Shown: positions 25,896 to 30,852 of the stretch, in pieces
Layout of the letters: the number at the start of each line of letters is the position of its first letter
How positions within the stretch are numbered: position 1 is the stretch's first letter
Assembly: GCF_015751905.1 (NCBI RefSeq)
Contig: NZ_JADOUF010000001.1
Location: forward strand, 3,472,001 to 3,536,000
Reading direction: 5' to 3'
DNA from: Longispora fulva
Lineage (GTDB): Bacteria; Actinomycetota; Actinomycetes; Mycobacteriales; Micromonosporaceae
Length of the DNA stretch: 64,000 nucleotides
The notes under the pieces: model-generated
What the model saw: the letters and a program-made list of their open reading frames with translations, nothing else
Database searches by the model: none
Told to the model about the DNA's origin: nothing
Made by a program: the position numbers and the translations under genes

Positions 25896-26522
25896 ATGAT
25901 CCGGCTGGCGGTGGTCGACGACTTCCCGATGAACGTGCTCGGCTTCGAGCAGACGTTCGTGGCGGCTCCCGACGTCGTGGTCGTCTCCGGGGTGACCGAC
26001 CCCGGCGAACTGCCGGCCGGGGACGCGTTCGACGTCGTGCTGTGCGATCTGTACCTCGACGGCGGGCAGCGGCCCTCCCTGGACGTGATCGAGGCACTGG
26101 CGGCCCGCGCGCACGTGCTGGTCGTGTCCCGCTCCGGCCGGCCGCTGGACGTCCGCTCCGCGCTCGCCCGGGGCGCGCGCGGCTACCTGACCAAGCGTGC
26201 CCCGCTGGCGGAGTTCCTGCCGGCGGTCCGGACGGTGGCCGCCGGGGACATCTACCTCACCGGGGAACTGGCCGACCTGCTCGCCGCCGCGGAGAACACC
26301 GACCCCCGGCTGTCCCCGCGCGAACGGGAGGTGGTGGAGCTGATCGCCAGCGGCCTGGCCAACAAGCAGATCGCCGCCCGGCTGTCGATCGACATGTCCA
26401 CCGTCGACACGTACATAGACCGGATCAAACGCAAGTTGGGGGTACGCGGGAACCGCGTGGTGCTGGCCATGGAGGCCCTCCGGCTGCACTACCCGGACTT
26501 CCCGGCCGGCGACGTCCGGTGA
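25896..26522 (+). CDS. NarL/LuxR-family response regulator
   Basis: A 208-residue regulator. The receiver domain (1-115) has DD at 8-9, phospho-acceptor Asp51 in VVLCDLYLDG and Lys near residue 96 in YLTKRAPL. The LuxR helix-turn-helix (about 145-200) reads LSPREREVVELIASGLANKQIAARL. It heads a three-gene operon with two kinase-like proteins; each junction is a four-base GTGA overlap. ATG 25896 is preferred over ATG 25890 because of the -10 spacing, but both are possible. Confidence 0.9.
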   Translation: MIRLAVVDDFPMNVLGFEQTFVAAPDVVVVSGVTDPGELPAGDAFDVVLCDLYLDGGQRPSLDVIEALAARAHVLVVSRSGRPLDVRSALARGARGYLTKRAPLAEFLPAVRTVAAGDIYLTGELADLLAAAENTDPRLSPREREVVELIASGLANKQIAARLSIDMSTVDTYIDRIKRKLGVRGNRVVLAMEALRLHYPDFPAGDVR

Positions 26523-27700
26523 GCCGGGCGGACCTCGCGCCGTCCGTCGCCGTGCCGGCAGCGGACAGCGCCGCGGCCGGCGCCGAGCGGACCCTGGCCG
26601 TGGCCGCCTTCGCCGGTCCGGTGGCCGGGCTGCTCCTGGTCGTCGGGCAGGCCGTGACGTTGCCAGCCTCCCCCGCCCGGCTGCCCCTGCTGGCGGTGTG
26701 CGTCACCGCCGCCGTGTCCGCCGGACTGCTGGCCGCCGTCTCCTGGCGGCGCGGCCGACTGCCGCCATCCTGGGTGGCCGTCGACGCCGTGCTCCGGGCG
26801 GCGCTGCTGGCCGCGTCGTTCCTGCTCTGCTGGTACGGCGGCGGTCTGGCGGCCACGACAGGACGGGACAACAGTCCGCTGTACGACTTCCTGGTCGTCA
26901 CCGCGGCCGTCCCCGGCCTGGTCCCGTGGCCGCTGCCGGTGGCCATGGCGTCGGTGACCCTGGTCACGGCCACCTCGGTGGCCGGGGAGCTCCTCCTCGG
27001 CAACCCGATGTGGAACGTCGTGCCCAACTCGACGGCGTTCCACGGCTCGGCGTTGATCGCCGCCCTGGTCGCCCGGCAGGTGCGCGCCGTGGCCCGGCGG
27101 ACCGACGCCTACCATCGCGAGACGGCCGAACGCGCCGCGGCCCTCTCCGCCGCCGACGAGCGCCGACGGCACACCGAACCGCTGCGGCAACGGGTGCTCA
27201 CGACCCTCACGGAGGTACTGGAGTCCGGCGCGATCGCCGACCCCCGGCTCGCCGGCCAGGCCCGCCGGGAGGTGGCCTGGCTGCACGGGCTGCTCAGCCG
27301 CGGTCCACGCGAACCGGACGGCGACCTGCCGGACCTGCTCCGCGCGCTGGCCGGCGACCTCGCCGACACCGGCCTGCGGGTGGAGCTGGACCTGCCGGCC
27401 GGGGACCTGCCACCCGGCGGGCGGGGCGCGGCGGCGCTCGTCCAGGCGGCCCGCGAGGCGCTGACCAACGTCCGCAAGCACTCCGGGGCGGACGTGGCCC
27501 GGCTCAGCCTGCGGCGGACCGCCGACGGCTGGCTGGTCGAGGTGGCCGACGACGGCTGCGGCTTCGACCCGGCCGAGGTGCCGGTCGGGCTCGGCCTGGC
27601 CCGGTCGGTACGGGACCGGATGTCGCGGGCCGGTGGCCATTCCGCCGTCCGGTCGGCCCCGGGCCGGGGCACCGTGGTGCTGTTGTGGGCGCCGCGGTGA
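26519..27700 (+). CDS. Membrane histidine kinase-like protein lacking the acceptor His
   Basis: A 393-residue protein with about five hydrophobic N-terminal segments (25-175), a dimerisation helix and a C-terminal HATPase_c domain. The ATPase part is intact: N-box [13 protein letters not shown]1 VADDGCGFD and G2-like [12 protein letters not shown]. In the DHp helix the HisKA_3 pattern ER-x-R-(x)4-L-H-D is replaced by [11 protein letters not shown], putting Arg223 where the phospho-accepting His should be. It may therefore bind ATP but not phosphorylate itself. It overlaps both neighbours by four bases. The next gene has the reverse defect. Confidence 0.82.
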
Positions 27701-28737
27701 GACGGCCCGACGCCCCGCTGCAGTTGACGGCGGGCCTCATCGTGCGGGCGTGCGCGCTCGTGGTCATGTGGGGGATCCTGACGTGGACCGGGCCCCGGTT
27801 CGACCACCCGTGGCAGCCCGTGGCCCTGCTCGCGGCGGTCACGGCGGTCAGCGCGGTGGTGGCGGCGCGCTGGTGGCGAGCCGGCCGGGCCGGGCGGGTC
27901 GGCCGGGCCGTGGACCTGCCGCTGGGCGTGGCGATGCTCGTCGTGGGCGCGCTGATCCTGCCGCCCGGCGGGACGGGGTGGTTGTACTTCGCCGCGCAGT
28001 ACACCCAGTTGCTCAGTTTCGCCGTGGGACTGACCGCCGGCCGGCTGTGGTGGGCCCTCGGCGTGGGGGTGTCCTGGGCGGCCACGCTGGTGGTTGTCGG
28101 GGTAGGCATCCGCCACCAGCCGTTGGCGGCCCAGTTGGCCGCGACGCCCGGCTTCCTGGTCAATCCGCTGGTCGGGTGGTCGGTCGCCCGGTACCTGCGC
28201 ACGTCCACCACGGCGTTGCGGGCCGCACAGCTTCAGGCCGTCGCCCAGGCCGCGGCCCTGGCCACGGCGACCGAGCGTGAGGCGTACGCCGGCGCGCTGC
28301 ACGACCGGGCCCTGCAGATCATGGAGCTGTTGGCGGCCGACGGGGTGGTCACAGAACCCGGGCAGGCCGCGCGGGTCCGCGAGGTGTCGGCGTGGCTGCG
28401 GGACTTCGTGGACACCGGGCGGACGGAACCGGACCTGCTGGCGGCGTTGCGGACCATCGCGCAGGCTGCCGACCGGCCCGTCCGGTTGCACGACTCAGCG
28501 CTGCGCGCCGAGCCGGTCGCGGCGGTTCCGGTACTGGTGGCGGCGGTGGCGGCGGTGCTGGCCTGCGGGTCAGGGCCGGTGACGGTGCGGGCGGCGCCCC
28601 GCGACGGCGGCGTGCGGATCACCGTGGTCGGCGAGGACGTCGGCGACGGCGGCGGGGCCGGCCCCCTGCTGGCCCGGGCCGGCGGGCGGTTGGTGGCGGA
28701 GCCGTTGTGTCTGGAGCTGTGGGCGCCCGTCCGGTAA
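27697..28737 (+). CDS. Membrane histidine kinase-like protein with decayed ATPase domain
   Basis: A 346-residue protein with about five hydrophobic N-terminal segments (10-165) and a clear HisKA_3 helix, [21 protein letters not shown], with acceptor His202 and Asp203. The C-terminal region keeps the length of an ATPase domain, but its N-box is hydrophobic ([16 protein letters not shown]) and its G-boxes are gone ([11 protein letters not shown]). It probably cannot bind ATP. With the preceding kinase-like protein it could form a heterodimer that phosphorylates His202 in trans and passes phosphate to the regulator. That is inference. GTG 27697 overlaps the previous stop. Confidence 0.75.
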
Positions 28738-28856: not shown

Positions 28857-29696
28857 GTGAGCCTGCGCGGTCTTTTCGAGTACCGGGTCCGCGCCACGCC
28901 GGACGCCCCCGCCGTCCGGTGCGGCGACACGGCGTGGAGCTACGCCGAGTTGGCCGACCGCGCCGACCGGGTCGCCCGGCACCTGCGCGGCCTGGGCCTG
29001 CCCCTCGGCGCCCCGGTCGCCGTCTGCCTGCCCCGGGGCCCGCACCTGGTGGCGGCCCTGCTCGGCGTCCTGCAGGCCGGCGGAGCCTTCGCGCTGGTGG
29101 ACCCGGGTGGCCCCGTCCGGCGACGGCTCCGCGAACTGCGACCCTTCGCGGTACTGGCCCGCGGTTCCCACCACGCGGACCTCCCCGGCGACCACCCGGT
29201 CGTCCGCCTCGACGACATCGACGGCCCGCCGACCGCGCCCACCACGGCCACCGACCACTCGCCGCCGCGCAACGACGGGACCCTCGACGTGCTCGTGGAA
29301 CACGGCGACCCGGCCGGCTCCCGGCCGGACCGGACCGAGACGTACGACCTCGCCGACCCGGATCCGCTCGGCACCCCGGTCACCGACGGACGGTTCACCG
29401 TCGCCTGGGTCCGCGCGCTGTGCACCGGCGGCACGCTGAACCTTCTCACCCCGGAGGCCCCGCCCGGCGTGGGCGCCGACCCGCACCGGCTCGTCGCCGC
29501 CGAGCGGATCACGGTCCTCGGGTGCGATCCGGCGACGGTCCGCCGGCTGCTCCCTCCGGGGCGGCCCGACGTCGGCGTCGTGCGGCTGCTCGTCGTCGGC
29601 GTCGAGCCGTGGGCGTCCGCGGGACAGCGGGCCGCCCGGTACCGCCCCGGACCCCGGGTGCGGGTCATCGTGTCGGGCACCGACGTGCGGCTGTGA
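28857..29696 (+). CDS. Truncated AMP-binding (NRPS adenylation-like) protein
   Basis: A 279-residue protein resembling the N-terminal part of NRPS adenylation domains. Residues 1-85 carry core-A1/A2-like motifs (WSYAELADRADRVARHL; VAVCLPRGPHLVAALLGVLQAGGAFALVDPGG). The A3 phosphate loop (SGTTGxPKG) is absent; the segment at 110-165 is unrelated. Residues 175-260 again look adenylation-like (CTGGTLNLLTPE; RLLVVGVEPW). Everything after that is missing, against about 500 residues in the family. It is probably inactive or a stub. GGAGGG upstream supports the GTG start. No carrier or condensation genes are nearby. Confidence 0.65.
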   Translation: MSLRGLFEYRVRATPDAPAVRCGDTAWSYAELADRADRVARHLRGLGLPLGAPVAVCLPRGPHLVAALLGVLQAGGAFALVDPGGPVRRRLRELRPFAVLARGSHHADLPGDHPVVRLDDIDGPPTAPTTATDHSPPRNDGTLDVLVEHGDPAGSRPDRTETYDLADPDPLGTPVTDGRFTVAWVRALCTGGTLNLLTPEAPPGVGADPHRLVAAERITVLGCDPATVRRLLPPGRPDVGVVRLLVVGVEPWASAGQRAARYRPGPRVRVIVSGTDVRL

Positions 29697-29703
29697 GCCT
29701 CGG

Positions 29704-30852
29704 TCAGCCGGCGCCGGTCGAGTACCGCCAGAAGTCGGACATCCACTCCGGCGGGACCGGGCTGTCGGCTCCGACCTGGGTGAGCAGGATCGCGACGGTG
29801 CCGGTGGCCGGGACGACGTGCGCCGACGTCCCGGTGCCCCCGACCCAGCCGTACCGGCCCGGCACGTTCCACGGGTCGAGGACGGCGACGTCGACCGAGC
29901 CGCCGAAGCCCCAGCCCTGGCCCTGGAGGAACAGCTCGCCGACCGCCCGTTGGACCGCGGTCGTGTGGTCGCTGGTCATCCGCCGCACCGAGTCGGCGGA
30001 CAGCAGCCGCCGACCGTCGGCGGTCACGCCCCCGGCCAGCAGCATCCGCCCGAACGCCAGCCAGTCGTCGACCGTCGAGACCAGCCCACCGTTGCCCAGC
30101 GCGAACGCCGGCGGGGCGCTCCACTGCCCTTCCGGCCCGTCGGCCAGCTCCAACGCGCCCGCCTCGCCGCGGCGGTAGTAGCTCGTGAACCGTCCGAGCC
30201 TGTCCGCCGGCACCTCGAAGCCCGTGTCCACCATGCCGAGCGGCCCGAACACCCGCTCGGCCAGGAACTCCGGCAGCGGGCGGCCCGCGACCCTGGCGAC
30301 CAGCACGCCCTGCAGGGTGGAGCACGTGTCGTACAACCACGCCTCGCCCGGCTGGTAGAGCAGCGGAACCTGGGACAGCTCGGCCATCCACACGTCCGGG
30401 GCCGGGAACGTCGCCGGCCGCCGGCCGTCCTTCTGCACCGGGAACAGCCGCTGGACGGCCGGCAGGGTGAAGTCGGAGGCGAAGCCGTAGCCGGCGGTGG
30501 AGGTGAGCAGGTCGAACACCGTGATCGGACGGACCGCCGGGACCACGTCGTCGACCGGGCTGGCGGGGGTGCGCACGACCATCGGCTCCGCCAGCTCCGG
30601 TAGCCACCGGTCGACCGGTTCGTCGAGCGCGATCCGGCCCTCCTCGACCAGGACCATGACCGCCGCGGCGGTGACGGGCTTGGTGATCGACGCGATCCGG
30701 AAGATCGAGTCCCTGGCCATCGGCGCGCCGCCGACCGCGACCGAGCCCACGGCCGCGACCTCGGTCCGGTCGCCGCGGGCCACCAGGGCCACGGCGCCGG
30801 GCACCGAGCCGTTCCTGACGTGGGTGTCCAACAGCTCGCGCAGGTCGGTCAT
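29704..30852 (-). CDS. Beta-lactamase-family serine hydrolase
   Basis: A 382-residue class C beta-lactamase/esterase-type protein. The nucleophile motif S-x-x-K is Ser55-Ile-Thr-Lys58 in RIASITKPVTAA. The second motif, YxN in lactamases, reads YDT in WLYDTCSTLQGVL, which favours an esterase or D-aminopeptidase over a true lactamase. No signal peptide is present, so it is probably cytoplasmic. TATGGT six bases before the ATG suggests a leaderless message. It converges on the adenylation-like gene with seven bases between the stops. Confidence 0.85.
   Translation of the reverse strand: MTDLRELLDTHVRNGSVPGAVALVARGDRTEVAAVGSVAVGGAPMARDSIFRIASITKPVTAAAVMVLVEEGRIALDEPVDRWLPELAEPMVVRTPASPVDDVVPAVRPITVFDLLTSTAGYGFASDFTLPAVQRLFPVQKDGRRPATFPAPDVWMAELSQVPLLYQPGEAWLYDTCSTLQGVLVARVAGRPLPEFLAERVFGPLGMVDTGFEVPADRLGRFTSYYRRGEAGALELADGPEGQWSAPPAFALGNGGLVSTVDDWLAFGRMLLAGGVTADGRRLLSADSVRRMTSDHTTAVQRAVGELFLQGQGWGFGGSVDVAVLDPWNVPGRYGWVGGTGTSAHVVPATGTVAILLTQVGADSPVPPEWMSDFWRYSTGAG

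Follow-up and report, generated by a model that had tools for sequence, protein, structure and literature searches.

Can one histidine kinase be divided between two membrane proteins, each of which has lost the part that the other keeps? The accepted picture of histidine kinases is that of homodimers, and few heterodimers have, to our knowledge, been reported. The question is raised by three genes in a 64,000-nucleotide stretch of the 8.68 Mb Longispora fulva genome (hereafter the window), which encode a response regulator (RR; 25896–26522, + strand) and two kinase-like membrane proteins, HK1 (26519–27700, +) and HK2 (27697–28737, +). We conclude from sequence comparisons that the three genes probably form one signalling unit with a single kinase divided between two membrane proteins, the ATPase of HK1 acting on His202 of HK2 and HK2 acting on RR. 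Most likely neither protein functions without the other, and the two make up a single kinase that activates a gene regulator.

The first-pass annotation had placed the genes in one operon with GTGA junctions, and four-base GTGA overlaps indeed join the RR stop to the HK1 start (26519–26522, +) and the HK1 stop to the HK2 start (27697–27700, +), the latter with likely translational coupling. RR is a NarL-type response regulator with a receiver, a GerE/LuxR helix-turn-helix (GerE, 60.3 bits) and the putative phospho-acceptor Asp51. In the Pfam scan its receiver scored 27.4 bits against Response_reg, slightly below the cut-off of 30.2; the DD, D, S and K positions are nevertheless all filled, as in the two available orthologues (44–45% identical). 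With that sub-cut-off receiver score, RR classes on its sequence as a NarL/FixJ regulator, i.e. a phosphorylatable-Asp receiver plus GerE.

HK1, the proposed ATPase/kinase subunit, comprises a hydrophobic N-terminal part, a helix resembling that of dimerization and histidine phosphotransfer (DHp) domains, and a full HATPase_c domain (PF02518; 42.4 bits versus a cut-off of 26.4). Its catalytic and ATP-binding (CA) domain (27416–27694, +), delimited by Pfam, alignment and profile comparison with solved CA domains, carries the N-box and the boxes DDGCG, GLGL and PGRGT. All eleven catalytic residues are present (E313, N317, H321, D344, G346, G348, G357, G359, G382, G384 and T385), and the HK1 profile matched the solved CA domains of DevS, DosT, VraS and DesK. 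The acceptor site, in contrast, is occupied by Arg223 (27185–27187, +), which aligns with the His of 14/14 control kinases. HK2, the proposed phosphotransfer/phosphatase subunit, resembles HK1 in layout and has the opposite defect. Its DHp helix reads ALHDRALQ (LHDRALQ, Leu201–Gln207, at 28297–28317, +; His202 at 28300–28302), with Asp203 and Gln207 completing an HDxxxQ motif, and the expected residue is found at one of the eleven catalytic CA columns (G348). A Pfam scan of HK2 at E up to 1 returned no histidine-kinase domain, and a profile search of solved structures returned no kinase and one chance-level ribosomal hit. Both the kept ATP boxes with Arg223 in HK1 and the textbook His202 helix with lost N-box and G-boxes in HK2 had been read correctly in the first-pass annotation.

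Could this complementarity be an accident of decay, both genes being degenerating remnants? The same pair occurs in Phytohabitans suffuscus NBRC 105367, Micromonospora globbae WPS1-2 and one Micromonosporaceae metagenome-assembled genome (MAG). Across the four HK1 orthologues the acceptor site holds Arg, Gly, Pro or Ser, and all eleven CA columns are kept in 4/4. HK2 keeps the His, Asp and Gln (H, H+1 and H+5) in 4/4 and the N-box Asn in 0/4; Gly remains at column 346 in three and at column 348 in two, and the other nine CA columns are filled in none. The alignments show that each protein lacks what the other keeps, and that this is conserved across four genera. The first-pass annotation had proposed that relatives with His in the first protein or intact ATP boxes in the second would refute its reading; of the three other pair-holding genomes, 0/3 had the His in HK1 and 0/3 the N-box Asn in HK2.

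The mixed state was looked for in 82 distinct related family domains, namely the HK1-like domains of loci L002, L021–L046 and L128–L168 in frames of ≥ 200 codons, drawn from the best 30 HK1-profile loci and 15 stretches picked for long frames. Both the His and the N-box Asn were present in 57 domains, neither in 25, and one without the other in none; picking long-frame stretches raises the share of doublets (see below) and leaves the absence of mixed states unaffected. Likewise, 42/42 loci taken from HK2-profile hits in the order and phylum were complete kinases with both His and Asn (six of these rows, L056, L058, L060, L064, L072 and L093, recur among the 82 domains). In the window's genome, the His was found in 30/30 HisKA_3 loci inspected (of 40 matches) and the N-box, by motif, in 29/30. 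Among the domains examined, ATP binding without His and His without ATP binding were thus seen only in this pair, in opposite states in the two partners. Decay is therefore very improbable: the HK2 ATP domain and the HK1 His helix do drift, as it would have them, yet frames stay open and key residues stay in place in four genera whose proteins are 33–36% (HK1) and 35–50% (HK2) identical, and none of the 82 other domains is mixed. We rejected the chance or pseudogene reading as unlikely on the 4/4 conservation and the 0/82 count. (The HK1 values are identities to the window, the HK2 values to Phytohabitans.)

A related arrangement was nevertheless common among the relatives. A second domain was held by 25 of the 57 complete-kinase loci, in the same frame in 16 and in a separate same-strand frame in nine, and in 25/25 the partner lacked both His and N-box Asn. 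Such dead partners accompanied 11/42 complete relatives in loci unselected for them and 14/15 in the long-frame stretches. The window pair is unlike all 25 doublets in that its partner keeps the His, and the comparison suggests that an asymmetric doublet of kinase and dead partner may have given rise to the complementary pair.

The doublets themselves fall into two forms. The one-frame double kinases (L026, L034, L040, L042 and L154–L165; 16 loci of other Micromonosporaceae, ∼740–960 codons) join a complete MacS-like half to a half with Ala, Asp or Ser in place of the His and without the N-box Asn; these fused kinase/pseudokinase loci are a class of their own. At L031, L032, L036, L037, L038, L039, L044, L167 and L168 a complete kinase and a degenerate partner are encoded as two same-strand frames. 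L056 and L064 were considered as further doublets and dropped, their neighbour being another kinase-like frame with its own N-box, which we take to be LiaS-like. The L. fulva genome also encodes a complete, single HK1 paralogue (L002:1378–2562; ALHDTVLSTL, N-box kept), followed by its own NarL-type regulator.

To which kinase family do HK1 and HK2 belong? The HisKA_3 label given to them at first did not hold: neither reached a match to Pfam HisKA_3 (PF07730), nor did any of their five scanned orthologues (a fusion among them, see below), and both are absent from the 40 HisKA_3 matches of the window's genome. The ordinary relatives L022 and L002 fail the profile too, so the whole subfamily may share this trait. 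HATPase_c was found in HK1 and its orthologues (32.9, 45.6 and 33.7 bits) and was missing from HK2 of the window, Phytohabitans and the MAG; in M. globbae the match sits in the HK1 half. The best NCBIfam match of HK1 was the MacS sensor kinase (NF047322) at 46.2 bits, far under the cut-off of 300, and HK2 had none. His-Asp-xxx-Gln in DHp helix 1 was present in 4/4 HK2 and 0/4 HK1 proteins, and its Gln also in 29/42 more distant relatives. No CheA architecture (HPt P1, CheW-binding P5) was detected in the Pfam scan of HK1 and HK2. In all four pairs, predicted ATP binding and phospho-acceptor lie on two products encoded together with a regulator, if M. globbae is counted as two halves of one frame; the regulator is adjacent in 3/3 loci where the contig reaches.

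Where constraint lies was judged from mean pairwise identities over the transmembrane (TM) part, DHp helix 1 and the CA domain. These were 31/35/50% in HK1, 35/61/39% in HK2 (whose CA alignment contains gaps) and 31/72/54% in control kinases (the 30 of 91 pairs with comparable TM divergence). The shift is clear in HK1, where the His helix drifts as freely as the membrane part and the ATPase domain stays near the level of complete kinases. It is weaker in HK2, where the ATPase remnant is barely more alike than its own membrane part and the His helix is the most conserved region.

This pattern bears on whether the two proteins are partners at all. HK2 might instead be phosphorylated by another kinase of the cell, HK1 being an ATP-binding modulator or a kinase for some other partner, so that the two would share a regulator and be separate enzymes. 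With 40 HisKA_3 matches in the genome cross-talk is possible, and relatives do keep doubly degenerate, non-catalytic kinase partners; moreover, a ChrS pseudokinase is described as acting via another kinase in Corynebacterium glutamicum (PMC9491836). Yet in 4/4 genomes the two genes are found together, either overlapping or fused; their losses are opposite and their trees agree. An HK1 ATPase conserved to nearly the degree of complete controls (50 versus 54% identity) is, moreover, hard to explain without a substrate nearby. We regard separate enzymes as unlikely.

In a tree of 46 rows, the HK1 proteins formed one clade (100/99) and the HK2 proteins another (100/100), both branching as (window,(M. 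globbae,(Phytohabitans, MAG))), with the inner HK2 branch (98/77) just short of being starred. This concordance fits partners that were inherited together. Both clades fall in a poorly resolved region of the tree, and a single HK1 + HK2 clade was neither supported nor rejected (approximately unbiased test, P = 0.375). Of the best four of 119 candidates scored in its own genome, the best other match of HK2 was HK1 (73.7 bits versus 38.3 for the next), which favours kinship without proving it. The first-pass annotation had proposed an obligate heterodimer made by duplication and reciprocal loss. Its joint enzyme is supported by the shift in constraint, the concordant trees, the overlapping genes and the M. 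globbae fusion; origin by duplication is compatible with the data and, given the test result, was not accepted as proven.

How widespread is the pair? Searched with HK2, 4/354 Micromonosporaceae genomes gave matches (E ≤ 1e-6), and the four best HK1 hits came from the same four genomes. With window HK1 alone as query, its three orthologues scored 138–149 bits and the next family hit 94; a profile built from the four scored its members at 557–594 bits, as expected by construction for an own-profile match, and the next hit at 169. The HK2 profile had hits in 36/397 genomes of the order and 13/396 of the phylum (each including the window's own), and all those beyond the window's pair were weak (≤ 60.3 bits). 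Scanning 84,980 species genomes by pattern yielded 370 matching stretches, of which three, the other holders of the pair, were confirmed.

Gene order adds to the case for joint action. Phytohabitans has regulator–HK1–HK2 with a GTGA overlap between the kinase genes, and the MAG, whose contig ends at HK1, has an ATGA overlap; the HK1 stop overlaps the HK2 start in 3/3 unfused pairs. M. globbae has, after the regulator, a single frame of 806 codons consisting of HK1, a linker of ∼39 residues and HK2 (L017:2428–4845, contig NZ_RAQQ01000057.1). Gene overlap points to synthesis of the two proteins that is coupled and near-equal, an equality that the fusion would impose. The fusion also bears on how the proteins might assemble. 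DHp helices normally homodimerize, and HK1 and HK2 homodimers might meet as a tetramer in which HK1 phosphorylates HK2 between dimers. Nothing specific points to this arrangement, which we consider quite improbable, save that the HK1 DHp helix persists despite its drift; the fusion puts one of each half on every chain and so suits a DHp1:DHp2 bundle, though a fused dimer could pair homotypically.

Structure prediction was consistent with a degenerate kinase fold in HK2. An AlphaFold model of the Phytohabitans orthologue, made from four sequences (mean pLDDT 72, pTM 0.47), consists of about six N-terminal helices, a DHp hairpin and a small alpha/beta domain, and its best matches in the PDB were DesK chains (E 6.8e-5). 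The C-terminal part alone matched the ATP-binding domain of DesK (3ehg; E 4.8e-3, 128 columns, rmsd 3.3, TMt 0.71). Judged from this model, HK2 appears to have retained a CA-like shell from which the ATP boxes are gone. In the model of the M. globbae fusion (mean pLDDT 68, pTM 0.43, much of the first membrane part below 50), the two cytoplasmic halves are alike, and the matches were again histidine kinases.

How would a divided kinase work? Because HK1 lacks the His and HK2 lacks an ATP site, HK1 would be the sole entry point for phosphate and HK2 its sole exit, and the simplest working unit would for that reason be an HK1:HK2 dimer with transfer in trans. HK1 and HK2 would pair via their DHp helices; HK1 would bind ATP, and its CA domain would phosphorylate His202 of HK2 across the dimer; Asp51 of RR would then receive the phosphoryl group from HK2. 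HK2 would probably also dephosphorylate the regulator when not driven by HK1, because the Asp-x-x-x-Gln phosphatase motif is on HK2 only: its Asp203 and Gln207 match Asp189 and Gln193 of DesK, described as residues of the phosphatase reaction in DesK and NarX (PMC5231405, PMC3510030). Kinase activity would accordingly need HK1, and HK2 alone could dephosphorylate.

The same motif allows the pair to be read mainly as a phosphatase or repressor: HK2 would dephosphorylate a regulator whose phosphate came from another kinase or from small phosphodonors, and ATP would serve HK1 only for switching HK2. D-x-x-x-Q is kept in 4/4 HK2 proteins, and the motif, which corresponds to DesK Asp189/Gln193, is reported to be needed for the phosphatase activity of NarX (PMC3510030, PMC5231405), for which the acceptor His is dispensable (PMC5231405). 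A phosphatase would, however, have no need of His202, which is kept in 4/4, while the equivalent site of HK1 has gone to four different residues. We think this reading improbable, and somewhat more so than separate enzymes.

Several observations weigh against a divided kinase. Although both His and N317 are present in 14/14 control kinases, most of these were retrieved for their resemblance to HK1, which partly selects for the N-box and not for the His. The difference between CA and DHp identity in HK2 (−6 to −33, mean −22) lies inside the control range (−4 to −33, mean −18); the signs of relaxation in HK2 are therefore confined to its lost residues and its CA identity level (39 versus 54). 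Among the six HK1 pairs, one (Phytohabitans–MAG, −9) is control-like, its helix lying nine points above its CA domain. The whole-chain superposition of the HK2 model on DesK is poor (rmsd ∼17, TMt ∼0.46), and the models are of single chains; with a pTM of 0.43 the fusion gives no usable inter-domain confidence, and the docking of its halves is unreadable. Only four pairs are known, and their absence elsewhere is unproven because the genome searches scored the best four to five candidates per genome and the species-wide scan was pattern-based. Finally, the fusion is known from one draft contig. In the M. globbae frame, an alternative frame is open from nt 1022 to a TGA at 1274, overlapping the HK2 ATG at 1269, so that one linker indel, natural or a sequencing error, divides the fused from the two-gene state; HK1 and HK2 would be coupled in either case. 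Setting these points beside the rest, we still hold division of one kinase between HK1 and HK2 to be the probable arrangement. On the fuller proposal, an obligately heterodimeric membrane histidine kinase evolved naturally in a family with recurrent dead-partner doublets, its ATPase and acceptor/phosphatase functions being segregated by reciprocal loss; in our judgement this has an even chance of being right.

The genes around the unit were also inspected. Adjoining HK2 is an AMP-binding/adenylation-domain protein (28857–29696; 279 aa), which looks truncated and matches its family profiles in part; divergent from the RR gene lies a frame with a signal-like start and weak, sub-cut-off matches to SH3_3 and NlpC/P60 (24859–25665, −), a candidate neighbour at the promoter region. 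Beyond HK2 and facing it, past the adenylation-domain fragment, is a PF00144 serine hydrolase (29704–30852, −). M. globbae likewise has a PF00144 protein beyond and facing HK2 (L017:262–2292, +), and the MAG a D-alanyl-D-alanine carboxypeptidase (Peptidase_S11; L016:3059–4636, −), so that a serine hydrolase of the beta-lactamase/DD-peptidase kind lies beyond HK2 in 3/4 loci; Phytohabitans has something else there. These neighbours could reflect an envelope-related output, or chance. We make no claim of function from them, because the PF00144 proteins of the window and M. globbae are 30% identical over 220 columns and the Phytohabitans neighbour differs.

How does the pair compare with known systems? 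DesK–DesR of Bacillus subtilis shares the HisKA_3 and NarL families and the arrangement of His188, Asp189 and Gln193, and the HK2 model is closest to DesK (although neither HK1 nor HK2 matches HisKA_3); DesK, in contrast, is described as one complete kinase (PMC5231405). AbrC1/AbrC2/AbrC3 of Streptomyces coelicolor is likewise an actinobacterial triad of two kinases and one regulator, but both kinases can phosphorylate AbrC3, and no complementary loss is reported for them (PMC9739842). FasB/FasC–FasA of Streptococcus pyogenes also combines two kinases, each with six TM segments, with one regulator. The DHp and HATPase domains of FasB and His246 of FasC are reported as needed and the FasC kinase domain as dispensable, with two-hybrid evidence for a heterodimer; unlike here, however, FasB keeps its DHp His (H284) and FasC a recognizable HATPase, so that the loss is non-reciprocal in sequence, and the regulator is ComE-like rather than NarL-like (PMC12675982). 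In Synechocystis, Hik36/Hik43–Rre6 spreads over two genes a kinase that interacts with one regulator, but as a split CheA homologue with genes far apart (PMC7656254).

Kinase-like proteins without catalysis that act through a partner are exemplified by ChrS_CA-fs and DivL, and the intact paralogues ChrS and HrrS are described as forming heterodimers. ChrS_CA-fs differs from our pair in being a product of laboratory evolution, whose His is unneeded and whose own interaction was not seen by two-hybrid assay; DivL differs in needing neither its ATPase domain nor the acceptor residue (PMC9491836). CheA3/CheA4–CheY6 of Rhodobacter sphaeroides carries catalytic and phosphotransfer parts on two proteins, as HK1 and HK2 are predicted to do. 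Neither CheA autophosphorylates alone, and the phosphotransfer partner is also a phosphatase. There, CheA4 is without P1 and CheA3 without P3 and P4, i.e. whole domains, and the system serves chemotaxis (PMC3591291), whereas HK1 and HK2 are full-length membrane proteins, each with residue-level loss of one function. Incomplete kinases as such are not rare, because a survey quoted in the same paper counted 1556 of 42,417 HisKA proteins without an HATPase domain (PMC3591291).

If our reading is true, the opposite losses kept across four genera amount to a natural complementation experiment. Any phosphate that reaches the regulator from this pair must cross from HK1 to HK2, so that single mutants could address three matters in turn: phosphorylation in trans, the specificity of the heterodimer, and how kinase and phosphatase activities are kept apart. 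Amin et al. describe a split arrangement with the phosphatase on the phosphotransfer half as giving ultrasensitive or bistable output (PMC3591291), and the pair would correspond to it, because the phosphatase motif is on the His half only. If the M. globbae fusion is real, the HK1:HK2 ratio would be fixed in it, and it should behave differently; fused and unfused natural versions would then directly test whether splitting a bifunctional kinase leads to switch-like responses. In the open-licence literature, searched by titles and the openings of abstracts, we found no reciprocally inactivated pair of full-length membrane kinases. Collectively, these comparisons would place the L. fulva genes among divided and heterodimeric kinases that are already known, with the reciprocal inactivation of a full-length membrane pair as what appears new here.

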